DNA of 64,000 nt from a virus. A program made the translations under genes and the position numbers. Positions 44,846-51,808 of the stretch are shown here, one piece after another. Numbering within the stretch: position 1 is the first letter of the stretch; every line of letters begins with the position of its first letter. The DNA is taken from the IMG/VR virus record IMGVR_UViG_3300034105_002437, positions 1-64,000 of that record; one strand, 5' to 3'. The notes below the pieces were generated by a model that did not search any database, was not told the origin of the DNA, and worked only from the letters and a program-made list of their open reading frames with translations.

Positions 44846-44920
44846 GCCCATATAGCTTAATGGTAAAGCAGGGAACTCATAATTCCTTGAGTGGGGGTTC
44901 AATTCCCTCTGTGGGCACCA
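44846..44920 (+). tRNA. tRNA-Met (CAT)
   Basis: Acceptor GCCCATA / TGTGGGC with encoded CCA. The anticodon loop CTCATAA lies between GGGAA and TTCCT. Elongator type. A tRNA-Ile2 with modified C34 cannot be excluded. Confidence 0.9.
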
Positions 44921-44934
44921 ATTGAAAGTGATAT

Positions 44935-45453
44935 GTGAAACAAAAATTTCGTGATGCTTATATGAAGGTGGCAGAGACTTTTGCAGAACTGTCTTCCGCC
45001 AGACGCCTTCATGTTGGCGCAATTATAGTGAAAGATGATAGAATTATATCTATTGGATACAATGGTATGCCATCTGGTTGGGATAACAACTGTGAAGATA
45101 AAGAATACATGGACCAAACGGCGGGTGGTTGGTTGTCACCTGAAGAAATTGAAGAACAGTGGCCATGGAGTGAACAACAGTTACCAAAAACTGAAGACCT
45201 TCCATGGCTTCGTTATAAGTTAAAAACAAAACCGGAGGTTCTTCATGCAGAAACTAATGCAATCGCTAAGCTGGCAAGATCGAATGAATCTGGCCTTGGG
45301 GCTCATCTCTTTGTTACTCATGCACCTTGTTTGGACTGTGCCAAGCTTGTTTACCAATCTGGTATCAATAGTGTTTATTATCGCAATAGTTATCGTATCC
45401 AAGATGGCTTACAATTCTTGGATAAAGCAGGAGTGAAAGTGGAAAAGATGTGA
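44935..45453 (+). CDS. dCMP deaminase
   Basis: Converts dCMP to dUMP for dTMP synthesis. Zn-binding motifs are intact: HAETNAIAKL (His/Glu, about 103-112) and PCLDCAK (Cys pair, about 131-137). The N-terminal SSARRLHVGAIIVKDDRIISIGYNGMPSG segment is typical. 172 residues (T4 Cd: 193). GTG start 15 bases after tRNA-Met. There is no ATG before residue ~10, and the family N-terminus supports GTG. Gene lies within the tRNA region as a nucleotide-metabolism insert. Confidence 0.92.
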   Translation: MKQKFRDAYMKVAETFAELSSARRLHVGAIIVKDDRIISIGYNGMPSGWDNNCEDKEYMDQTAGGWLSPEEIEEQWPWSEQQLPKTEDLPWLRYKLKTKPEVLHAETNAIAKLARSNESGLGAHLFVTHAPCLDCAKLVYQSGINSVYYRNSYRIQDGLQFLDKAGVKVEKM

Positions 45454-45456
45454 ATC

Positions 45457-45464
45457 TCTAAATA
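45457..45464 (+). promoter_or_regulatory. Late promoter-like box (TCTAAATA)
   Basis: One mismatch from TATAAATA, 32 bases before the SprT-like gene. Confidence 0.45.
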
Positions 45465-45496
45465 AGCCTGGGACATTATTGTCCAAAGGAGTTCCC

Positions 45497-46009
45497 ATGC
45501 GTGTTAGGGTAGTGAATTGTCCAGACAAAGACTTCAAGCCTTTTGTAGAAAGAGCTGCCCAATTCTACGCCAAAGAACTTGTGCCTAACACCAGAATACG
45601 AAACAACTGTTTTACTGAAATTAAATTTGATGAATCCATACAAGAATATGGGTTTGCAAGTGTTAAAGAATACAATACAAGAAACAAACCAAGACAATTT
45701 TTGATAGAGATTCATCCAGGCATTGGGTCCAGAAGAATACTAGAAACACTGGCCCATGAAATGGTTCATGTCAAACAGTACATTCAAAATGAAACCAACG
45801 ACCAGCTGACCAAGTGGCGGGGTAAAAGGATCAATTCTGACAAAGTGGACTATTGGGTGCAACCATGGGAAATAGATGCATATGGCCGTGAGACTGGACT
45901 ACTAACAAAGTTTGCAATTTCAGAACATCTCTGGGAAATATTTGAAGATTTTGTTAACCCTGGAGAACCAATAGTTAAACAATCAATCCGTTGGAAAATA
46001 AAATCTTAA
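45497..46009 (+). CDS. SprT-like zinc metalloprotease (170 aa)
   Basis: The HEMVHVKQY helix (HExxH, about 87-95) is the zinc-protease signature, and WEIDAYGRE further on could provide a third ligand Glu. Upstream, RQFLIEIHPGIGSRRILETLA forms the usual strand and helix before HExxH. The ATG at 45497 has AAGGAG 7 bases upstream. SprT-like proteins in cells process DNA-protein crosslinks. In phages their targets are unknown; this one could process a virion or DNA-bound protein. Late-type promoter box upstream. Confidence 0.8.
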   Translation: MRVRVVNCPDKDFKPFVERAAQFYAKELVPNTRIRNNCFTEIKFDESIQEYGFASVKEYNTRNKPRQFLIEIHPGIGSRRILETLAHEMVHVKQYIQNETNDQLTKWRGKRINSDKVDYWVQPWEIDAYGRETGLLTKFAISEHLWEIFEDFVNPGEPIVKQSIRWKIKS

Positions 46010-46029
46010 AAATATTTTTAAAAAACCGC

Positions 46030-46058
46030 TTGCCAAGGCTCAAAGTTTACTATATAAT
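46030..46058 (+). promoter_or_regulatory. Sigma70 promoter of a noncoding unit
   Basis: TTGCCA (46030-46035), 17 bases, TATAAT (46053-46058). Predicted start near 46065. No gene with a ribosome-binding site follows before a terminator at 46241-46270. Confidence 0.8.
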
Positions 46059-46064
46059 ACAAAC

Positions 46065-46270
46065 ATATTTAATTTTTTAGAAAGAAAAAAGTGTCTCTCA
46101 TATCCCATAAGCCCTTTACGTTACAACTAGAGTATCGCACAATGAATTGCGCCGATAGCTCATGGGCGATTACAACCGGGTTTTGTGTAGATGAGGGATG
46201 GGACGGATAAAAAAGTTCTAAAAAAGACTCCAAACACAAGACCCTAGACCTAAAAAATCTAGGGTTTTTT
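46065..46270 (+). ncRNA. Candidate ~200-nt noncoding RNA of unknown class
   Basis: Bounded by a promoter and a strong terminator. It contains no convincing ORF on the + strand and no TPsiC arm, so not a tRNA. Possible pairings: TCTCTCAT (46094-46101) with ATGAGGGA (46191-46198, one wobble), and hairpin CGCC (46150-46153) / GGCG (46165-46168). A further match, TCCCAT (46103-46108) with ATGGGA (46198-46203), would be mutually exclusive or pseudoknotted. Not tmRNA, 6S or RNase P by motifs I know. Confidence 0.55.
46241..46270 (+). terminator. Intrinsic terminator of the noncoding unit
   Basis: Stem ACCCTAGA / TCTAGGGT (46241-46248, 46258-46265) followed by T residues. Confidence 0.9.
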
Positions 46271-46273
46271 GTT

Positions 46274-46357
46274 TGTTGTTTCAATACAACACAGTGGTTG
46301 CCAGAATCTTTGGTTCTGATACAATACACACTTGTTCTTTAAAAATTTGTTGTAGTT
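46274..46357 (+). promoter_or_regulatory. tRNA leader module A: hairpin, promoter, boxA-like element
   Basis: Hairpin TGTTGT / ACAACA (46274-46291), -35 TTGCCA (46298-46303), 16 bases, -10 TACAAT (46320-46325), then a 24-base element at 46334-46357 beginning GTTCTTTAAAAATT. The latter resembles the boxA antitermination signal of bacterial rRNA leaders (about TGYTCTTTAACA). It lies 3 bases before tRNA-Gln. The same element is repeated exactly at 47061-47084. Confidence 0.65.
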
Positions 46358-46360
46358 TAT

Positions 46361-46434
46361 TCCCGAATGGTGTAGTGGCAGCACAGCAGACTTTGACTCT
46401 GTTAGTATAAGTTCGATTCTTATTTCGGGTGCCA
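46361..46434 (+). tRNA. tRNA-Gln (TTG)
   Basis: Anticodon loop CTTTGAC, T-arm with TTCGATT, G73 and encoded CCA. The first acceptor pair is a mismatch (T1-T72), a tolerated feature of Gln tRNAs with weak 1-72 pairing. Confidence 0.88.
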
Positions 46435-46439
46435 TATTC

Positions 46440-46520
46440 AAACACATTATAGTGACGCATGAGCAGGTCACCAACTTCCGCTGGTTACGACAATCGTAAG
46501 TGAGTGAAGATAGTGTGTTT
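46440..46520 (+). ncRNA. Structured spacer RNA between tRNA-Gln and tRNA-Ser
   Basis: Closing helix AAACACATTA (46440-46449) / TAGTGTGTTT (46511-46520), ten pairs with one wobble. Three internal hairpin stems: GTGAC/GTCAC (46452-46456, 46467-46471), ACCA/TGGT, and TTACGA/TCGTAA (46485-46490, 46494-46499). Cloverleaf-like but without anticodon or TPsiC sequences. Related closing helix at 47373-47439. Confidence 0.5.
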
Positions 46521-46526
46521 CAATAT

Positions 46527-46619
46527 GGAAGATAATGCAGGTGGGATGGTCCGCCGACTAGCCTTGAAAACTAGGTTCTCTCAAAAAGGGATGGGGTTCG
46601 ACTCCTCTGTCTTCCGCCA
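46527..46619 (+). tRNA. tRNA-Ser (TGA)
   Basis: Acceptor GGAAGA / TCTTCC with G73 and CCA, anticodon loop CTTGAAA, long variable arm as expected for serine. Confidence 0.9.
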
Positions 46620-46627
46620 AATTTTAA

Positions 46628-46701
46628 CTGGGTATATGATAGTGGCAGTCGCCGAGGTTTGGAACCTTGTAGTGCAAGTTCGATTCTTGCTACCCAGACC
46701 A
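46628..46701 (+). tRNA. tRNA-Pro (TGG), copy 1
   Basis: Acceptor CTGGGTA / TACCCAG (C1-G72 as in Pro tRNAs), anticodon loop TTTGGAA, A73 and CCA. Confidence 0.9.
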
Positions 46702-46706
46702 AAAAC

Positions 46707-46796
46707 GGAGAGTGGGCAGGATGGTAATGCAGCGGATTGCTAATCCGTAGGCTCATGAAAGTGGGCCACAGGGTTCGACTCCCTGACTCTCCACCA
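46707..46796 (+). tRNA. tRNA-Ser (GCT)
   Basis: Acceptor GGAGAGT / ACTCTCC, anticodon loop TTGCTAA, long variable arm, CCA encoded. Discriminator is A rather than the usual Ser G. Confidence 0.87.
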
Positions 46797-46798
46797 AT

Positions 46799-46890
46799 GC
46801 CAGCGAGACTTGGTAGTCAGAGAGGTCTTATACACCTTTTAGCGCCAGATTAGCGTTCTTGATAGGGTTCGATTCCCTACGCTGGTACCA
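46799..46890 (+). tRNA. tRNA with anticodon TAT and long variable arm (isotype uncertain)
   Basis: Acceptor GCCAGCG / CGCTGGT (G1-T72 wobble), A73, CCA, T-arm TAGGG-TTCGATT-CCCTA. The anticodon stem GAGGT / ACCTT encloses CTTATAC, giving TAT (Ile, AUA). A ~25-base variable arm with a CGC/GCG stem is typical of Leu/Ser/Tyr, not Ile, and the D-stem is weak. Could be a misread or diverged class II tRNA. Confidence 0.65.
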
Positions 46891-46898
46891 GATTTTAT

Positions 46899-46974
46899 GT
46901 TGGTGTGACCCGAATGGCTAGGGAGCAGATTGCAAATCTGTTATATGCAGGTTCAAATCCTGTCACCAACTCCA
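46899..46974 (+). tRNA. tRNA-Cys (GCA)
   Basis: Acceptor GTTGGTG / CACCAAC, anticodon loop TTGCAAA, U73 (typical of Cys) and CCA. Confidence 0.9.
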
Positions 46975-46978
46975 AACA

Positions 46979-47084
46979 TGTTGTAGAAATACAACAGTGC
47001 TGGTTGACAAAAGATGTGGTTGTGTTATACTTCATACATGAATTGAGAAATCAATCAAACGTTCTTTAAAAATTTGTTGTAGTT
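46979..47084 (+). promoter_or_regulatory. tRNA leader module B: hairpin, promoter, boxA-like element
   Basis: Perfect hairpin TGTTGTA-GAAA-TACAACA (46979-46996), -35 TTGACA (47004-47009), 16 bases, -10 TATACT (47026-47031), then the 24-base boxA-like element at 47061-47084, identical to that at 46334-46357. It ends 4 bases before tRNA-Glu. Confidence 0.7.
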
Positions 47085-47088
47085 AATT

Positions 47089-47163
47089 GCACCTATCGTC
47101 TATCGGTTAGGACGCTGCCCTTTCAAGGCGGAAAGAGGAGTTCGATTCTCCTTAGGTGTACCA
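47089..47163 (+). tRNA. tRNA-Glu (TTC)
   Basis: Acceptor GCACCTA / TAGGTGT, anticodon loop CTTTCAA, T-arm GGAG-TTCGATT-CTCC, A73 and CCA. Its CCA is part of a 16-bp inverted repeat with 47269-47284. Confidence 0.9.
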
Positions 47164-47284
47164 TTTGTTTTGCTGATGTAAGCCATGAGGTAAACGTCAA
47201 CCTTGAGTAACTCTGTATAGAAACGGTAATTGCTGCAGCTAATTCCGTTGAGCATAGCAAATAGTGCGTCAGCAAAACAAATGG
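47161..47284 (+). ncRNA. Structured spacer RNA with 16-bp closing helix
   Basis: CCATTTGTTTTGCTGA (47161-47176) is perfectly complementary to 47269-47284. The 92-base interior contains another strong stem AACGG-AATT / AATT-CCGTT and small hairpins GGT/ACC and GAG-TAA-CTC. There is no T-arm or anticodon, so it is not a tRNA. Candidate stable RNA, or a processing device for tRNA-Glu and tRNA-Lys. Confidence 0.6.
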
Positions 47285-47292
47285 TAGTTTAT

Positions 47293-47367
47293 GGAGGTAT
47301 AACTTAACGGCGAAAGTAGCTGGCTTTTAACCAGTAAATCAGAGTTCGATTCTCTGTGCCTCTACCA
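47293..47367 (+). tRNA. tRNA-Lys (TTT)
   Basis: Acceptor GGAGGTA / TGCCTCT, anticodon loop CTTTTAA inside CTGG/CCAG, T-arm AGAG-TTCGATT-CTCT, A73, CCA. Confidence 0.9.
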
Positions 47368-47372
47368 TATAA

Positions 47373-47439
47373 AAACACATTTCAATAGTTTCGACTGTGA
47401 TGGATAGTTTCTGTTTAGTACAGTATCCGAAGTGTGTTT
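47373..47439 (+). ncRNA. Structured spacer RNA between tRNA-Lys and tRNA-Tyr
   Basis: Closing helix AAACACATTTC (47373-47383) / GAAGTGTGTTT (47429-47439), one wobble. The inner nested stem is GGATA..CTGT-ttagt-ACAG-TATCC. The closing helix and 3' flank (GTGTGTTTC then ATATGGA) match the element at 46440-46520, and both precede a class II tRNA. Confidence 0.5.
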
Positions 47440-47445
47440 CTATAT

Positions 47446-47538
47446 GGAGCAATTGATGCTATGGCGTGTGCATCGGCGGACTGTAAATCCGTCCCCTCCG
47501 GGTAAACAATCTTGGTTCGACTCCAAGTTGCTCCACCA
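47446..47538 (+). tRNA. tRNA-Tyr (GTA)
   Basis: Acceptor GGAGCAA / TTGCTCC, anticodon loop CTGTAAA, long variable arm as in bacterial Tyr tRNAs, A73, CCA. Confidence 0.9.
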
Positions 47539-47728
47539 AATCCCGGTACTACTTCCGTTAAAGTAGCGTTTGATTAGCGATAGAGATCCGGTGGCAGAAG
47601 ACCGTTAGCGGAGTAATCCTGAATCTGATAGGCAGAATCTCACTGCACACAGACTCCGAATAAATGAGATGGACAGAGTAACTGCTCAATTAAGGGCTGG
47701 CGTGGAACCCAGTAGCTTATACTAATTT
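47539..47728 (+). ncRNA. ~190-nt structured spacer between tRNA-Tyr and tRNA-Asp
   Basis: No ORF and no TPsiC motif. Stems seen: CTACTT/AAGTAG (47549-47554, 47561-47566) and CGGAGT/ACTCCG (47609-47614, 47653-47658), plus a possible GGG/CCC hairpin near 47694-47710. Richer in G and C than the protein genes. Function unknown. Confidence 0.4.
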
Positions 47729-47803
47729 GGTCTCAAAGTGTTCATGGACGCACGTATGCCTGTCACGCATAAAGAAGGGGATCGTTACCCCTTGGGACCG
47801 CCA
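47729..47803 (+). tRNA. tRNA-Asp (GTC)
   Basis: Acceptor GGTCTCA / TGGGACC, anticodon stem TATGC/GCATA with loop CTGTCAC, G73 (Asp identity) and CCA. The T-loop is ATCGTTA, not TTCRANY: positions 54 and 58 appear exchanged. Confidence 0.85.
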
Positions 47804-47811
47804 AGTTTTAT

Positions 47812-47887
47812 TCCGCAGTAGCTCAGTCGGTAGAGTAGATGACTGTTAATCATTTGGTCGGTGGTTCGAGCCCACCCTGTGGAGCCA
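47812..47887 (+). tRNA. tRNA-Asn (GTT)
   Basis: Acceptor TCCGCAG / CTGTGGA, anticodon loop CTGTTAA, G73, CCA. Confidence 0.92.
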
Positions 47888-47895
47888 ATTTTTTC

Positions 47896-47972
47896 CCGTG
47901 TGTAGCTCAGCTAGGTAGAGCTCTTGGTTTGGGACCAAGTGGTCGCATGTTCGAATCGTGTCACACGGACCA
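47896..47972 (+). tRNA. tRNA-Pro (TGG), copy 2
   Basis: Acceptor CCGTGTG / CACACGG, anticodon stem CTTGG/CCAAG with loop TTTGGGA, A73, CCA. Same anticodon as the gene at 46628, but the sequences differ widely. Confidence 0.9.
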
Positions 47973-47981
47973 ATTTCGCCT

Positions 47982-48017
47982 TTGTTGACGGCGTATAATA
48001 GGATAAGTTGTCAACAA
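47982..48017. repeat. Inverted repeat between tRNA-Pro and tRNA-Ala
   Basis: TTGTTGAC (47982-47989) / GTCAACAA (48010-48017) around a 20-base loop that includes TATAAT. May be an RNA processing hairpin. There is no -35 at the right distance for a promoter. Confidence 0.5.
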
Positions 48018-48025
48018 CAAATTTT

Positions 48026-48100
48026 GGGCTGGTAGTGATAATGGGAGCACAGGGGCTTTGCAAGCCTTTAGTCGGGGTTCGATCCCCCGCCGGTCCACCA
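48026..48100 (+). tRNA. tRNA-Ala (TGC)
   Basis: Acceptor GGGCTGG / CCGGTCC (two wobbles), anticodon loop TTTGCAA, T-arm CGGGG-TTCGATC-CCCCG, A73, CCA. The third pair, G3-T70, matches the Ala identity element. Confidence 0.9.
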
Positions 48101-48105
48101 AATTC

Positions 48106-48180
48106 GGTTCAGTAGCACAGTGGTAGTGCAACTCCTTCATACGGAGTAGGTCGTTGGCTCGTATCCAACCTGAACCACCA
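48106..48180 (+). tRNA. tRNA-Met (CAT), copy 2, or tRNA-Ile2
   Basis: Acceptor GGTTCAG / CTGAACC, anticodon stem CTCC/GGAG with loop TTCATAC, T-loop CTCGTAT, A73, CCA. Whether C34 is modified to read AUA cannot be decided from DNA. Confidence 0.85.
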
Positions 48181-48184
48181 GTAT

Positions 48185-48260
48185 GGGTCTTTAACTCAGT
48201 GAACAGAGTACTTGGCTACGAACCAAGAAGTCGTAGGTTTGAATCCTACAAGACCCTCCA
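48185..48260 (+). tRNA. tRNA-Arg (ACG)
   Basis: Acceptor GGGTCTT / AAGACCC, anticodon stem CTTGG/CCAAG with loop CTACGAA, T-arm GTAGG-TTTGAAT-CCTAC, U73, CCA. Confidence 0.9.
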
Positions 48261-48486
48261 AGCCGTTCCGCTTTGTTAGCGGATACTGTGACCCACAGGA
48301 TAGAAGTGAGGTGACTCTCACGGGTGGTAGTCTTTAAACCGAAAGGCCGCTGGCAGTGCGATAACGGTCCTGGTCGGGAAGCGGGTGGAGGGTGTGTGTT
48401 ACAAGGCGTTGAACCAAACGGGGAGCCAAGTAACAACGGTGCGAGCTGACACACTAAATTACCGCCGCAGGACGCAGAGCATTTAT
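48261..48486 (+). ncRNA. ~226-nt GC-rich structured spacer RNA
   Basis: Longest tRNA-free stretch of the array. It has hairpin CCGCT-ttgtt-AGCGG near 48267-48282, a GTGA/TCAC hairpin, and a nested set GTGTGT..GTTAC..GGC/GCC..GTAAC..ACACAC over about 48390-48456. No T-arm, no RBS-linked ORF. An antisense frame here is a shadow of the tRNA-Arg sequence. Candidate stable RNA of unknown class. Confidence 0.5.
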
Positions 48487-48560
48487 ACCCCGTTAGCTCA
48501 AAGGTAGAGCACCCGGCTGATAACCGGGAGACAGAGGATCGTTACCTCTACAGGGTACCA
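48487..48560 (+). tRNA. tRNA-Ile (GAT)
   Basis: Anticodon stem CCCGG/CCGGG with loop CTGATAA, acceptor ACCCCGT / ACAGGGT (one C-A mismatch), A73, CCA. Shares the exchanged T-loop ATCGTTA with tRNA-Asp. Confidence 0.88.
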
Positions 48561-48566
48561 AATTTT

Positions 48567-48640
48567 TTCTCGCTGGTGTAATGGCAGCATAGCGGTCTCC
48601 AAAACCGTTGGTTGGGGTTCGAGTCCCTAGCGGGAAGCCA
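48567..48640 (+). tRNA. tRNA-Trp (CCA)
   Basis: Acceptor TTCTCGC / GCGGGAA, anticodon loop CTCCAAA, G73 (Trp identity), CCA. Confidence 0.9.
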
Positions 48641-48661
48641 ATTTTTATAAAGGTGATTGAT

Positions 48662-49150
48662 ATGAAAAAGTTCGACATAGAAGAAGTCAAAACATTCCTT
48701 GCAAAACAAGGACAAGATACCAAAGTGTACCTTGGTGCTGACTCTGAAAGAATTAGAGTTAACGGTGTTTGGTATGCTGATTATGCTTTGGCTGTCGTAG
48801 TTCATATTGATGGCCGCCACGGTTGTAAGATATTTGGTTATGTAGATAGAGAAATGGATTATGACCATAAGAAAAGTAAACCTGCTATGCGTCTGATGAC
48901 AGAAGTATACAAGGTTTCAGAATTGTTCCAAAACTTGGCTGACGTATTAGAAGATTTTCATGTTGAAGTTCATTTGGACTTGAACAAATCTGATGAATTC
49001 GGAAGTTCATGTGTTGTGCAACAAGCAATAGGTTATATCAAAGGTACATGTAACATGACACCGATGGTTAAACCAGATGCACCTGCTGCTAGTTTCTGTG
49101 CCGATAGATTGAAAAGAATCTTGGCCGAACAAGAAGCAGTGCATGTCTAA
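48662..49150 (+). CDS. RNase H-like fold protein (DUF458/YkuK-like, 162 aa)
   Basis: Strand pattern and acidic residues resemble the DUF458 RNase H-like family: KVYLGADSERIRV (first Asp), a YALAVVVHI strand, and HLDLNKSDEFGSSCVVQQAIGYI (second Asp and GSS), with a C-terminal ADRLKRILAEQ helix. The ATG at 48662 has AAAGGTG 8 bases upstream; the longer frame reads through tRNA-Trp and is rejected. Lies inside the tRNA array between tRNA-Trp and tRNA-His, so a role in RNA processing is tempting but unproven. Confidence 0.75.
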   Translation: MKKFDIEEVKTFLAKQGQDTKVYLGADSERIRVNGVWYADYALAVVVHIDGRHGCKIFGYVDREMDYDHKKSKPAMRLMTEVYKVSELFQNLADVLEDFHVEVHLDLNKSDEFGSSCVVQQAIGYIKGTCNMTPMVKPDAPAASFCADRLKRILAEQEAVHV

Positions 49151-49171
49151 CAGACCCCCAAAGTAATTAAG

Positions 49172-49264
49172 TTTACTTTGGGCAGTGCTTAGTGTAGTGG
49201 TCTGCACCTCTCGCTGTGACCGAGATAGTATGAGTTCGATCCTCATAGTGCTGCCCAAAGTAAA
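49172..49264. repeat. 14-bp inverted repeat enclosing tRNA-His
   Basis: TTTACTTTGGGCAG (49172-49185) pairs perfectly with 49251-49264 and can be extended by three more pairs with one wobble. It covers both the 5' leader and the encoded CCA of tRNA-His. Confidence 0.8.
49182..49257 (+). tRNA. tRNA-His (GTG)
   Basis: Acceptor CAGTGCT / AGTGCTG with G-1 opposite C73, the His identity pair, and an encoded CCA. Anticodon stem TCTCG/CGAGA with loop CTGTGAC, T-arm ATGAG-TTCGATC-CTCAT. Confidence 0.9.
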
Positions 49265-49267
49265 TTT

Positions 49268-49342
49268 GCCTTGTTAACTCAGCGGTAGAGTGTCTCCCTT
49301 ACAAGGAGAAGGTCGGCGGTTCGATCCCGTCACAAGGTACCA
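49268..49342 (+). tRNA. tRNA-Val (TAC)
   Basis: Acceptor GCCTTGT / ACAAGGT, anticodon stem TCTCC/GGAGA with loop CTTACAA, A73, CCA. Confidence 0.92.
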
Positions 49343-49346
49343 ACAT

Positions 49347-49422
49347 GCTGCTTTAGCTGATGTGGTCATAGCGCTGGTTTGAAGAACCAGTGAAAGAGGT
49401 TCGATCCCTCTAGGCAGCACCA
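49347..49422 (+). tRNA. tRNA-Phe (GAA)
   Basis: Acceptor GCTGCTT / AGGCAGC, anticodon stem CTGGT/ACCAG with loop TTGAAGA, A73, CCA. Confidence 0.92.
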
Positions 49423-49430
49423 ATTATTAT

Positions 49431-49507
49431 ACCCAAGTGACGAAATTGGCAAACGTGTCTCTCTCAAAAGGAGAATTTTGTGGGTTCGAATCCCATCTTG
49501 GGTACCA
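49431..49507 (+). tRNA. tRNA-Leu (CAA) with short variable loop
   Basis: Acceptor ACCCAAG / CTTGGGT, D-stem ACG/CGT, anticodon stem TCTCT/GGAGA with loop CTCAAAA, T-arm GTGGG-TTCGAAT-CCCAT. The variable region is only ~5 bases, although bacterial Leu tRNAs normally have a long arm. Confidence 0.88.
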
Positions 49508-49508
49508 T

Positions 49509-49582
49509 GCTCTCATAGTATAATGGCATTACACATCCTTGGTAAGGATGAAAACCAAGTTCAATCCTTGGTGGGAGCACCA
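49509..49582 (+). tRNA. tRNA-Thr (GGT)
   Basis: Acceptor GCTCTCA / TGGGAGC, anticodon stem CATCC/GGATG with loop TTGGTAA, A73, CCA. Confidence 0.9.
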
Positions 49583-49731
49583 ATATTTTTTATTTCATCC
49601 AGTACAAAAAGCTGTTGCCTTGTTTCAAAGGATGGTGTAAAATCATTGCTGTTGGTGAATGATTTTGTTTCTTGATATGATTCCAATTTATTGGCCATAT
49701 CGTATAAATCTTTAACATAATTTTTTTCCAT
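49561..49731 (-). CDS. Doubtful small antisense ORF (56 aa)
   Basis: ATG is the complement of 49729-49731, the frame ends inside the 3' end of tRNA-Thr. The peptide (MEKNYVKDLYDMANKLESYQ, then ETKSFTNSNDF and more) has protein-like composition, and an AATAAATA-type box sits just upstream on the minus strand, but there is no Shine-Dalgarno and the last residues come from the tRNA. Listed because the 163-base stretch 49583-49744 otherwise holds nothing recognisable. Confidence 0.25.
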   Translation of the reverse strand: MEKNYVKDLYDMANKLESYQETKSFTNSNDFTPSFETRQQLFVLDEIKNIGAPTKD

Positions 49732-49744
49732 AGAAGTATTTATT

Positions 49745-49821
49745 GCCCCGGTGACGGAATTGGTATACGTGTTGGTCTTAGAAGCCAAATTTTGAGAGTT
49801 CGAGTCTCTCCTGGGGCACCA
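49745..49821 (+). tRNA. tRNA-Leu (TAG) with short variable loop
   Basis: Acceptor GCCCCGG / CTGGGGC, anticodon stem TTGGT/GCCAA with loop CTTAGAA, T-arm GAGAG-TTCGAGT-CTCTC, A73, CCA. Variable region ~5 bases, like tRNA-Leu(CAA). Confidence 0.88.
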
Positions 49822-49830
49822 AGTTTTTAG

Positions 49831-49896
49831 TTACAGTCAGTACTGTGGGAAGTACAGGTGGACAACACCAGGACAAGGTTCGAATCCAAACTGTAA
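49831..49896 (+). pseudogene. Degenerate tRNA-like element 1
   Basis: Perfect 7-bp acceptor-like helix TTACAGT / ACTGTAA and a TTCGAAT T-loop, but the T-stem is mostly unpaired, no anticodon loop with T33 can be formed, and no CCA is encoded. Two internal hairpins (GTACT..AAGTAC, GGTG..CACC). Either a decayed tRNA or a tRNA-like RNA. Confidence 0.5.
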
Positions 49897-49901
49897 TTTT
49901 T

Positions 49902-49976
49902 CTGGCGTTAGTATAATGGACAATACAGTAGGCTTCTACCCTTCTAATGGGAGTTCGATTCTCTCACGCCGGACCA
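49902..49976 (+). tRNA. tRNA-Arg (TCT)
   Basis: Acceptor CTGGCGT / ACGCCGG, anticodon loop CTTCTAC (one stem mismatch), T-arm GGGAG-TTCGATT-CTCTC, A73, CCA. Confidence 0.88.
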
Positions 49977-49980
49977 GATT

Positions 49981-50063
49981 GCGAGTATGGTGGAATAGGT
50001 AGACACAAGAGACTTAAAATCTCTCGCTTCGGCGTACCGGTTCGATTCCGGTTACTCGTACCA
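49981..50063 (+). tRNA. tRNA-Leu (TAA)
   Basis: Acceptor GCGAGTA / TACTCGT, anticodon loop CTTAAAA, normal long variable arm (CGC-TTCG-GCG), A73, CCA. A regular class II Leu tRNA, unlike the two other Leu genes. Confidence 0.92.
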
Positions 50064-50081
50064 AGTATACCAAAATATTGG

Positions 50082-50110
50082 TTGACAGTTGAATAGAAAG
50101 CATATATAAT
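50082..50110 (+). promoter_or_regulatory. Consensus sigma70 promoter of tRNA-Gly(GCC)
   Basis: TTGACA (50082-50087), 17 bases, TATAAT (50105-50110). The tRNA begins 10 bases after the -10 box, leaving a leader of about three bases. Confidence 0.9.
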
Positions 50111-50119
50111 AACTCTATT

Positions 50120-50194
50120 GCGGGTATGGTGCTAGTGGTAACACAAGACCTTGCCAAGGTTTAGTTGTGAGTTCGATTCTCACTACCCGCTCCA
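50120..50194 (+). tRNA. tRNA-Gly (GCC)
   Basis: Acceptor GCGGGTA / TACCCGC, anticodon loop TTGCCAA, U73 (Gly type), CCA. Confidence 0.92.
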
Positions 50195-50199
50195 GATTC

Positions 50200-50273
50200 G
50201 CCCTATTAGTATAATGGTATTACACCTGTTTTGTAATCAGGTTACGGCAGTTCGATTCTGTCATGGGGCACCA
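50200..50273 (+). tRNA. tRNA-Thr (TGT)
   Basis: Acceptor GCCCTAT / ATGGGGC, anticodon loop TTTGTAA (one inner T-T mismatch in the stem), A73, CCA. Confidence 0.88.
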
Positions 50274-50281
50274 AATAAGTA

Positions 50282-50310
50282 TTGACTACAACAGATTTTT
50301 AGTGTATAAT
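50282..50310 (+). promoter_or_regulatory. Sigma70 promoter of tRNA-Gly(TCC)
   Basis: TTGACT (50282-50287), 17 bases, TATAAT (50305-50310). As for tRNA-Gly(GCC), the tRNA starts 10 bases after the -10 box. Confidence 0.88.
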
Positions 50311-50319
50311 AGTTTATGT

Positions 50320-50393
50320 GCGGGATTAGTTTAATGGTAAAACAGCAGATTTCCAATCTTCGGTCATCAGTTCGATTCTGATATCCCGCTCCA
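50320..50393 (+). tRNA. tRNA-Gly (TCC)
   Basis: Acceptor GCGGGAT / ATCCCGC, anticodon loop TTTCCAA, U73, CCA. Confidence 0.92.
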
Positions 50394-50399
50394 TTTAAT

Positions 50400-50466
50400 G
50401 CGGTCGTTATAGAACAGTTTAGGTGTCCAACTTAAGCAGTATGTGCGAATCATACAGGCCGCTCCA
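50400..50466 (+). pseudogene. Degenerate tRNA-like element 2 (Gly-like)
   Basis: Six-pair acceptor GCGGTC / GGCCGC, U73 and encoded CCA, T-arm GTATG-TGCGAAT-CATAC. The D-arm is missing or very small, and the possible anticodon loop TGTCCAA has G33 instead of T33. Only 67 bases. Probably a decayed copy of the adjacent tRNA-Gly(TCC). Confidence 0.5.
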
Positions 50467-50484
50467 TTTATTTTTGAGGTCATT

Positions 50485-50730
50485 ATGAACATCACACCAC
50501 TTGCAAATAAAATTGTTATTAAACGAATCGAAGGTTCTAAGCAAACAGAATCAGGCATCATTCTACAGAGAACAGATGAACCTGATAGAGCAGAAGTTAT
50601 GGCCATCGGTCCTGATGTTGATGAAGTTTCTGTTGGTGATATTGTTCTTTTGGATTGGAATGCTGCAATGAAATCCGGCGACTACTATGTTGCCAAAATT
50701 GATGGCGTAGTTTTCGTATACGGAGAATAA
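50485..50730 (+). CDS. GroES-like co-chaperonin (Cpn10 family, 81 aa)
   Basis: Cpn10-type beta barrel: ITPLANKIVIKRIEGSKQTESGII (with the mobile-loop region KQTESGIIL), then RAEVMAIGPDVDEVSVGDIVLLDW, a classic G-G/P-x-V..GD-V pattern, and an ending DGVVFVYG. T4 uses gp31 for capsid folding by GroEL; this is a shorter, more bacterial-like version (81 residues against 111). The ATG at 50485 has GAGGT 5 bases upstream; the longer frame reads through a tRNA-like element. Probably helps fold gp23. Confidence 0.88.
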   Translation: MNITPLANKIVIKRIEGSKQTESGIILQRTDEPDRAEVMAIGPDVDEVSVGDIVLLDWNAAMKSGDYYVAKIDGVVFVYGE

Positions 50731-50731
50731 A

Positions 50732-50953
50732 ATGTCTGATGGTGGTAAAGGTTCTAACCCAAGACCATTTAGTGTTTCACAGGAAACATTTGGTGATAAC
50801 TTTGATGCAATCTTTCGTAAGCCATCACCAAAAGAAATAGAAGATGCTAAAGCCGAACAAGAAGAATTCGATAGAATCTTAGAAGATAATCTTAAACGCA
50901 CTAGGCATGAATTCGATAAAAACGTTATTATGAAACCTGAATTTTTCGAATAA
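50732..50953 (+). CDS. Conserved small phage protein (73 aa)
   Basis: Begins MSDGGKGSNPRPFSVSQETF, a sequence pattern I have seen in short proteins of T4-like marine phages, then NFDAIFRKPSPKEIEDAKAEQEEFDRI, a charged helix. No recognised domain. The start is 2 bases after the GroES-like stop with GGAGA upstream, so the two are co-expressed. Function unknown. Confidence 0.7.
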   Translation: MSDGGKGSNPRPFSVSQETFGDNFDAIFRKPSPKEIEDAKAEQEEFDRILEDNLKRTRHEFDKNVIMKPEFFE

Positions 50954-50960
50954 ATATTAT

Positions 50961-51033
50961 AGCGGGTTGGTGAAACAGTATCACAGTGGGCTCATAATCC
51001 TCAGTTCCGGTGCAAATCCGTGACCCGCAACCA
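50961..51033 (+). tRNA. tRNA-fMet-like (CAT), initiator
   Basis: Ends in CCCGCAACCA with position 1 (A) unpaired to A72, as in bacterial initiator tRNAs where 1-72 is a mismatch. Anticodon stem contains GG..CC pairs around CTCATAA with one mismatch. T-arm CGG-TGCAAAT-CCG. 73 bases, D-loop shorter than usual. Initiator reading is an inference from the 1-72 mismatch. Confidence 0.75.
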
Positions 51034-51034
51034 A

Positions 51035-51808
51035 TTACTCTCTATACATATTAGATAAGAATTCTGCCTCAGGAATTCTAGTTCTTGTATTCTTACTACC
51101 AAGAACAACAACAATCCTATTCCCAATATTAGTGTCCAAGAATAATGTTATGCATCCACCAGATGCACTAATGTATCCTGTTTTACTGACAACAATATTT
51201 TGGTGAGTGCCAATCAATGGATTGGTATTACGAAAAACAAACCACTTATTTTTAATTTGTATTTTTATTTCAGACTTACGGCTAGCGTATCTGATGTTGC
51301 CATAGAAACTCGCTTCTCTTGTAAGTTTAATTAATTGTCTTGCAGTACTAACATTTCGTGCATCTAATCCAGTTGGTTCATACACAACCGTATTTGTCAT
51401 TTCCAAACTTCTAATTTTTTGGTTCATTGCTTGTACACATTCGACCAATCCACCAGGATAATGTTCACAAAGAGTTAGTGCAGCTCTATTGTCACTGGCT
51501 GTTATTGTTAGGTTTATTAATTCCAACCTAGTTAATTTTTGATTGTTTCTTGGTAACTTGTCGGCCAATTTTGTTGTCATTGTTATTTTTTCATCAACAT
51601 TTTGGTTTGCATCTAAGACAACCATAACAGTCAACAGTTTTGTTATACTAGCAATTGGCCGGACCACATCAATATTTTCACCATCAATAATATTACCACG
51701 TATATCCGATATCAACCAGGATTTTGCGGTGATGGGTTTTGCTGAGACAACTTGTTGATTAAAAAGTATGGTGAAAAATAGCAAATAAGTAAAAATTTTG
51801 TATAACAA
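51035..51808 (-). CDS. Secreted D-Ala-D-Ala peptidase (S11 family), probable lysis enzyme
   Basis: Penicillin-binding-protein-type DD-peptidase with all three motifs: SITK (Ser54-Lys57), SDN (105-107) and KTG (209-211). A signal peptide (FTYLLFFTILFNQQVVSA) precedes the mature domain. TTG start with GAGG about 9 bases upstream; no in-frame ATG is nearer. 257 residues, lacking the C-terminal anchor domain of PBP5. It lies on the minus strand after two or three small membrane/secreted genes, suggesting the peptidoglycan-degrading member of a lysis cassette. Such enzymes are carboxypeptidases or endopeptidases; which activity applies cannot be read here. Confidence 0.85.
   Translation of the reverse strand: MLYKIFTYLLFFTILFNQQVVSAKPITAKSWLISDIRGNIIDGENIDVVRPIASITKLLTVMVVLDANQNVDEKITMTTKLADKLPRNNQKLTRLELINLTITASDNRAALTLCEHYPGGLVECVQAMNQKIRSLEMTNTVVYEPTGLDARNVSTARQLIKLTREASFYGNIRYASRKSEIKIQIKNKWFVFRNTNPLIGTHQNIVVSKTGYISASGGCITLFLDTNIGNRIVVVLGSKNTRTRIPEAEFLSNMYRE

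Follow-up and report, generated by a model that had tools for sequence, protein, structure and literature searches.

A candidate small structured RNA with palindromic loops beside tRNA-Glu in the tRNA array of an uncultivated T4-type phage

The analyzed stretch of DNA (64,000 nt, hereafter the window) covers part of a virus record of 111 kb. Judging by its DNA polymerase, which matched phrog_262 and was nearest to those of cyanomyophages (~50% identity), the phage is of T4 type; it is an uncultivated, lake-type phage. At least 28 tRNA genes are densely clustered in the window. Between the genes for tRNA-Glu and tRNA-Lys lies an element, here called RNA A, that is closed by a long helix (P1) and contains the shorter helices P2, P3 and P4. 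The features of this region are the following:

47004–47031, plus strand: sigma-70-like promoter TTGACA-16-TATACT upstream of tRNA-Glu (consensus match only, at 11 of 12 consensus positions).
47089–47163, plus strand: tRNA-Glu(UUC), the upstream neighbour of RNA A, which gives ACCA to P1; the same neighbour is found in 35 of 72 copies.
47160–47285, plus strand: RNA A in full, with P1 as its closing stem; its 38 pairs are 98.5% formed across 70 distinct homologues.
47160–47180, plus strand: P1 5' strand, discriminator A and CCA of tRNA-Glu followed by UUUGUUUUGCUGAUGUA; P1 cells are 99.7% paired and 8 of 21 pairs are compensated.
47186–47205, plus strand: hairpin P2 with the 8-nt loop 1 AAACGUCA (47192–47199; centre ACGU, 47194–47197); three core pairs, all with double changes.
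47211–47216, plus strand: P3 5' strand, from the covariation alignment; one C/U mismatch in the window copy.
47223–47248, plus strand: hairpin P4 (ACGG/CCGU) with the loop 2 palindrome GCUGCAGC at 47232–47239; palindromic in 70 of 70 copies.
47252–47257, plus strand: P3 3' strand, from the covariation alignment.
47265–47285, plus strand: P1 3' strand, from the fold, the inverted repeat and covariation.
47293–47367, plus strand: tRNA-Lys(UUU), beginning 8 nt past the end of P1; in 63 of 72 copies, the start of a tRNA lies no more than 12 nt downstream of RNA A.

The Glu–A–Lys unit is likely driven by the putative promoter at 47004–47031. A 28-nt direct repeat, GTTCTTTAAAAATTTGTTGTAGTT(T/A)ATT, occurs at 46334–46361 and 47061–47088, immediately 5' of tRNA-Gln and tRNA-Glu, and looks like the boxA antitermination element of rRNA leaders. 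The tRNA array is preceded by a long non-coding leader (46060–46360), which is conserved in 64 loci and includes a terminator-like hairpin near 46241–46265. The gene for tRNA-Ser(UGA) (46526–46620) was missed by ARAGORN and matched only the tRNA-Sec model, weakly. The acceptor stem of tRNA-His (49169–49267) is lengthened by a 17-nt inverted repeat into the leader and trailer (AAGTTTACTTTGGGCAG / CTGCCCAAAGTAAATTT), and this gene has no encoded CCA of the usual kind. An ORF within the array (48608–49150) matched Pfam RNaseH_like (PF04308) and phrog_11311 (unknown function); such an ORF is common beside tRNA arrays of this kind.

The first-pass annotation described a perfect 16-bp helix that includes the CCA of tRNA-Glu, and CCATTTGTTTTGCTGA (47161–47176) is indeed the exact reverse complement of 47269–47284. 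As an inverted repeat, the perfect pairing reaches 18 bp (47159–47176 with 47269–47286), and the predicted fold adds U-G, G-C, U-G and A-U inside it, giving a helix of 21–22 bp with G-U pairs. The acceptor stem of tRNA-Glu ends with base 47159 and the helix proper begins at the discriminator A47160; the tRNA ends at 47163, so that both the discriminator base and the CCA are paired. The view that such complementarity would hardly arise by chance was borne out by two controls. When both strands of the window, with ~2,500 CCA triplets in all, were searched for a perfect helix between a CCA and a partner within 420 nt, only the helix at 47161 (seen from both strands) exceeded 9 bp. When the spacer was dinucleotide-shuffled 3,000 times, no perfect helix was longer than 13 bp, none reaching 14 bp, and the folding z-score of the spacer was −3.4. 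The "well-paired hairpin" said to be enclosed by the helix is present as pairing but consists of two hairpins, which carry more information than any other part of the element.

Searching IMG/VR with the 3' arm yielded 114 stretches, and both arms, ~107 nt apart, were found in 41 loci besides the window's own record. More copies came from scans with internal patterns and a covariance model, giving 72 distinct copies in total, of which 70 are clear members (alignment A2), all from IMG/VR contigs. The sequences L150 and L171 were rejected as class E RNAs (see below) with a similar closing stem, and some internal-pattern matches were discarded as unrelated coding sequence.

In the 70 distinct sequences, 98.5% of 2,655 cells were paired when P1 (21 bp), P2, P3, P4 and the loop 2 pairs were considered together. 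Double changes were found in 20 of 38 pairs against 11.2 in shuffles (0 of 500 as high), and the covariation score was 0.302 against 0.127 (again 0 of 500), far above every slid version of the structure. Within P1, CG was replaced by UA in 21 copies and UA by AU in 22 copies, and in L047 and L049 one extra U and one extra A are inserted on opposite arms and still pair; many copies were retrieved by matching part of the element, which inflates the invariance of the arms but does not produce these compensations. The arms also include several G-U pairs, which are easier to reconcile with selection on RNA than with selection on a DNA cruciform. The unpaired stretches UAACU and AGCAAAUAGUGC are nearly invariant, which is more than a mere spacer would need.

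The predicted fold, its helices and the retained self-complementarity of its loops are demonstrated by this comparison, and on the same comparative grounds RNA A is a new family of small structured RNAs. The compensatory changes for which the annotation had proposed to look in relatives were found, and the pairing, whose lack of conservation it had named as counter-evidence, is conserved; its suggestion of a small RNA gains support from the strong conservation and covariation. With moderate confidence, as part of a joint explanation in which a self-associating RNA is released from a tRNA precursor, we consider 47160–47285 to be the gene for a small structured non-coding RNA of ~126 nt beside tRNA-Glu in a phage tRNA array.

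No Rfam family, including GOLLD, ROOL, OLE, raiA and pRNA, matched 47164–47285 at the gathering threshold or at E up to 1, and in the region 44900–51200 only tRNA models matched credibly within the same limits. No homologue of RNA A was found in 50,697 records of named or cultured phages, and a stretch consisting of a class B element and RNA A was likewise without a match among named phages. Matches of 18–20 nt in phage ribonucleotide reductase genes were attributed to chance, as were two exact pattern matches in prokaryote genomes, where the rest of the element was absent.

RNA A adjoins tRNA-Glu in nearly all copies. It lies directly behind this tRNA, with the CCA in P1, in 35 of the 72 listed copies; in most others, a class B element (~200 nt) is located between them or RNA A lies 5' of tRNA-Glu. 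In copies that are not directly behind a tRNA, CCA is swapped for UCA, UUA or GUUA and the 3' strand of P1 is altered to match. The retention of P1 with compensated letters away from the CCA indicates that the helix itself is the conserved feature and that pairing of the CCA follows from its position. Sequestration of the CCA until processing, which had been proposed as an explanation of the structure, was therefore rejected as the purpose of the helix and is a side effect at most. A locus set retrieved by the neighbouring RNase H-like protein, without reference to RNA A, gave an unbiased estimate: among 56 loci with tRNA-Glu, 32 contained RNA A, 22 contained another CCA-closed RNA and 2 contained neither. 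Location in a phage tRNA island, as observed for RNA A, is a trait of tRNA-linked self-assembling phage RNAs.

When the regions behind all tRNAs were scanned (1,955 contexts), CCA-closed helices with at least 14 Watson–Crick pairs were found in 153, namely behind tRNA-Glu in 70 of 87 cases, tRNA-Gln in 43 of 69, tRNA-Lys in 20 of 74, tRNA-Ala in 6 of 66, tRNA-Leu(CAA) in 5 of 40 and tRNA-Met in 0 of 186. Control CCA sites had such a helix in 8 of 400 cases, some of which may be the same elements. The closing helix is 17–22 bp long in 152 of the 153 elements and 24 bp in the remaining one. The elements include four classes (A, B, E and S) with unrelated interiors and a common closing stem that includes the CCA. 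In class E (~150 nt), a covarying stem is capped by a GACG tetraloop that is invariant (7 of 7), and class B (~200–210 nt) has GCCG, GACG or GACGG loops; GACG tetraloops were reported as contributing to retroviral RNA dimerisation (PMC516450). Class S (39–130 nt) has constant ends and an unconserved interior, and two copies are located in the window:

46432–46528, plus strand: S-type spacer with a CCA-closed helix, the CCA of tRNA-Gln being paired into the GG of tRNA-Ser.
47365–47447, plus strand: S-type spacer with a CCA-closed helix, the CCA of tRNA-Lys being paired into the GG of tRNA-Tyr.

In both, the 3' end of the helix is the first GG of the next tRNA. In relatives, the S-type ends, in many cases carrying a single A-C mismatch, recur behind the Gln, Lys, Ala, Leu, Tyr and Phe tRNAs. 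Other spacers of the array were also noted. The 190-nt spacer between tRNA-Tyr and tRNA-Asp (47539–47728) occurs in 71 loci with a median identity of 86%, an alifold energy of −70 kcal/mol and 10 pairs with double changes, and is probably another structured RNA; a spacer of this type lies directly 3' of RNA A in L016 and L215. The strongly folding 226-nt spacer between tRNA-Arg and tRNA-Ile (48261–48486) is conserved in 34 loci and is possibly a further RNA gene.

A two-turn helix joining the ends of an excised unit, as found in these elements, is a trait of RNase III processing stalks, and RNase III prefers two helical turns. That such different interiors are closed by the same kind of helix suggests that they are excised in the same way, and the 17–22 bp CCA-closed stem may thus be a shared processing stalk. 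It could be assumed on this basis that RNA A is mainly such a stalk, with a helix that serves RNase III (or a similar enzyme) as the site for parting the two flanking tRNAs, Glu and Lys, while the RNA inside it is a by-product. This assumption, which we consider unlikely but the most serious of the alternatives, accords with the occurrence of the same 17–22 bp helix with the tRNA CCA in all four classes and with its frequency behind tRNA-Glu and tRNA-Gln and absence behind tRNA-Met (counts above). It also accords with the free variation of S-type interiors, which indicates that P1 alone can persist without a functional core and so counts against our preferred explanation. In addition, between the close relatives L120 and L121, the class E interior is deleted in the former with the entire closing helix kept and is intact in the latter. 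However, a stalk leaves the conserved single-stranded segments and the switching palindromic loops of RNA A unexplained, and P1 is retained where the preceding element is not a tRNA.

Selfish or recombining cassettes, whose terminal inverted repeats end in CCA/TGG and which are lodged at tRNA 3' ends, would account for the recurrence of the ends CCATATAAAAACACA/TGTGTTTCTATATGG with differing interiors behind the Gln, Lys, Ala, Leu, Tyr and Phe tRNAs, and for the differing places of RNA A around tRNA-Glu. This origin appears highly improbable: neither a transposase nor a target duplication was seen in the loci read, RNA A stays beside tRNA-Glu in nearly all copies, and the compensatory changes, among them G-U pairs and insertions matched on both arms, indicate that selection acts on RNA.

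The unexpected feature of RNA A lies in its loops. Palindromes were taken from ungapped sequences because the MAFFT alignment put loop 1, and loop 2 in a few variants, in the wrong place. In all 70 copies loop 2 is palindromic, with 15 different palindromes of 6–10 nt, which include GCUGCAGC, GUGGCCAC, GCGGCCGC, CUAGCUAG, CCAGCUGG, CUUGCAAG, UUGCAA, UCUAGA, ACUCGAGU, GUAGCUAC, GUUGCAAC, AACUGCAGUU and others. Its central tetramers, UGCA (26 copies), GGCC (25), AGCU (15), CUAG (2) and UCGA (2), are all self-complementary, and by our own estimate the chance of four further tetramer types all being palindromic, if each were free, is ~(1/16)^4. Among 80 variable four-column segments of the alignment, only loop 2 was palindromic in more than 80% of copies. 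The centre of loop 1 is ACGU in 57 copies, GAUC in 10 and GUAC in 2, that is, palindromic in 69 of 70, the single exception being L247 with UCGU. A tree that leaves out the loop columns requires at least 21 changes of the loop 2 tetramer and at least 9 of loop 1, these being parsimony counts on a short, possibly recombining sequence. Computed self-duplexes of the loop 2 palindromes mostly range from −9 to −17 kcal/mol (−4.5 to −5.2 kcal/mol for two short 6-nt forms), and the common form of loop 1 gives a weak one (−3.1 kcal/mol).

Adjacent letters of a loop cannot pair within one chain, and their covariation therefore points to contact between two identical molecules. Kretsch et al. 2025 (PMC12286853) relied on just this kind of palindrome switch (GGCC/GAUC/AGCU) in arguing for intermolecular kissing in OLE and GOLLD. 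The loop pattern deduced for RNA A matches this published signature of homotypic kissing loops, and symmetric loops with covarying palindromes are another trait that it has in common with tRNA-linked self-assembling phage RNAs. All this suggests that copies of RNA A may stick to each other through their loop tips. A DNA site was rejected as the reason for the palindromes, the sequence changing while staying palindromic, and so was intramolecular loop–loop pairing, the tetramers of loops 1 and 2 not being mutually complementary.

The reading that we favour, with slightly better than even confidence, is that RNA A is a self-associating RNA released from a tRNA precursor; most likely, we infer, it is cut from this precursor and pairs with itself into dimers or oligomers. 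The promoter at 47004 would probably drive its transcription along with that of the tRNAs. Its release would involve RNase P, acting where the next tRNA begins (a few nucleotides downstream in most copies), together with either cleavage of the two-turn P1 helix by an RNase III-type enzyme or 3' trimming. The RNA would then fold into a three-way arrangement of the long P1, hairpin P2 and P3/P4. Two copies could kiss at loop 1 and at loop 2, and the two self-complementary tips per molecule would allow a dimer with two contacts, or a ring or chain. The part of this mechanism that the present data support is the predicted fold and the constraint on the loops; any role of RNA A in infection is one that we infer. 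RNA A may instead be a monomeric small RNA, such as a sponge or protein decoy, whose palindromic loops pair with a palindromic target or bind a symmetric protein, as its small size, its conserved unpaired stretches and the sponges made from tRNA spacers in enterobacteria would allow, but this is very doubtful, as a fixed target is incompatible with five different loop 2 tetramers and the palindromes switch within close relatives.

Tentatively, self-associating RNA A can be assumed to be a very small natural phage RNA that assembles via two different homotypic kissing loops. Together with B, E and possibly more RNAs from tRNA arrays of uncultivated T4-like phages, it would form a set that has in common the two-turn closing helix with the CCA and tips able to kiss (palindromes in A, the invariant GACG tetraloop in E and GCCG/GACGG loops in B). 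Natural RNA-only oligomers are few and large. If the assumption is true, a 126-nt RNA with two switching palindromic loops offers an easily handled case for studying the role of self-assembling RNAs near phage tRNAs. The spacers of phage tRNA arrays usually receive no attention but can harbour a set of structured RNAs that lack annotation; a simple sequence rule for finding such RNAs is the CCA-closed two-turn helix.

Several known systems are comparable with RNA A. In the processing stalks of 16S and 23S rRNA, a long closing helix joins the ends of the RNA to be released and is cut by RNase III, whereas the helix class of RNA A is 17–22 bp long, includes the tRNA CCA and encloses a spacer. 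RNAs C and D are stable non-tRNA products of the T4 tRNA cluster, and the comparison of RNA A with them in the first-pass annotation is based on position. The pRNA of phage phi29 (~120 nt) resembles RNA A in its size, its long terminal helix and its two loops for intermolecular kissing, the latter being predicted for RNA A. However, the two different loops of pRNA pair with each other in a protein-primed phage, while each loop of RNA A would pair with itself in a T4-type phage. OLE RNA likewise shows switching of a palindromic loop (GGCC/GAUC/AGCU) and is a homodimer (PMC12286853), as would be expected of RNA A, but is much larger, belongs to extremophile bacteria, has protein partners and is unrelated in sequence. 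GOLLD and ROOL differ in being several hundred nucleotides long (659 nt for ROOL env-120) with many stems and in forming cages, compared with ~126 nt and three helical arms in RNA A. Like RNA A, they are phage non-coding RNAs, ROOL often being found near tRNA islands. Symmetric kissing loops help to hold GOLLD and ROOL together as homo-oligomers, and in GOLLD the palindromes covary by switching, as in the loops of RNA A (PMC12286853).
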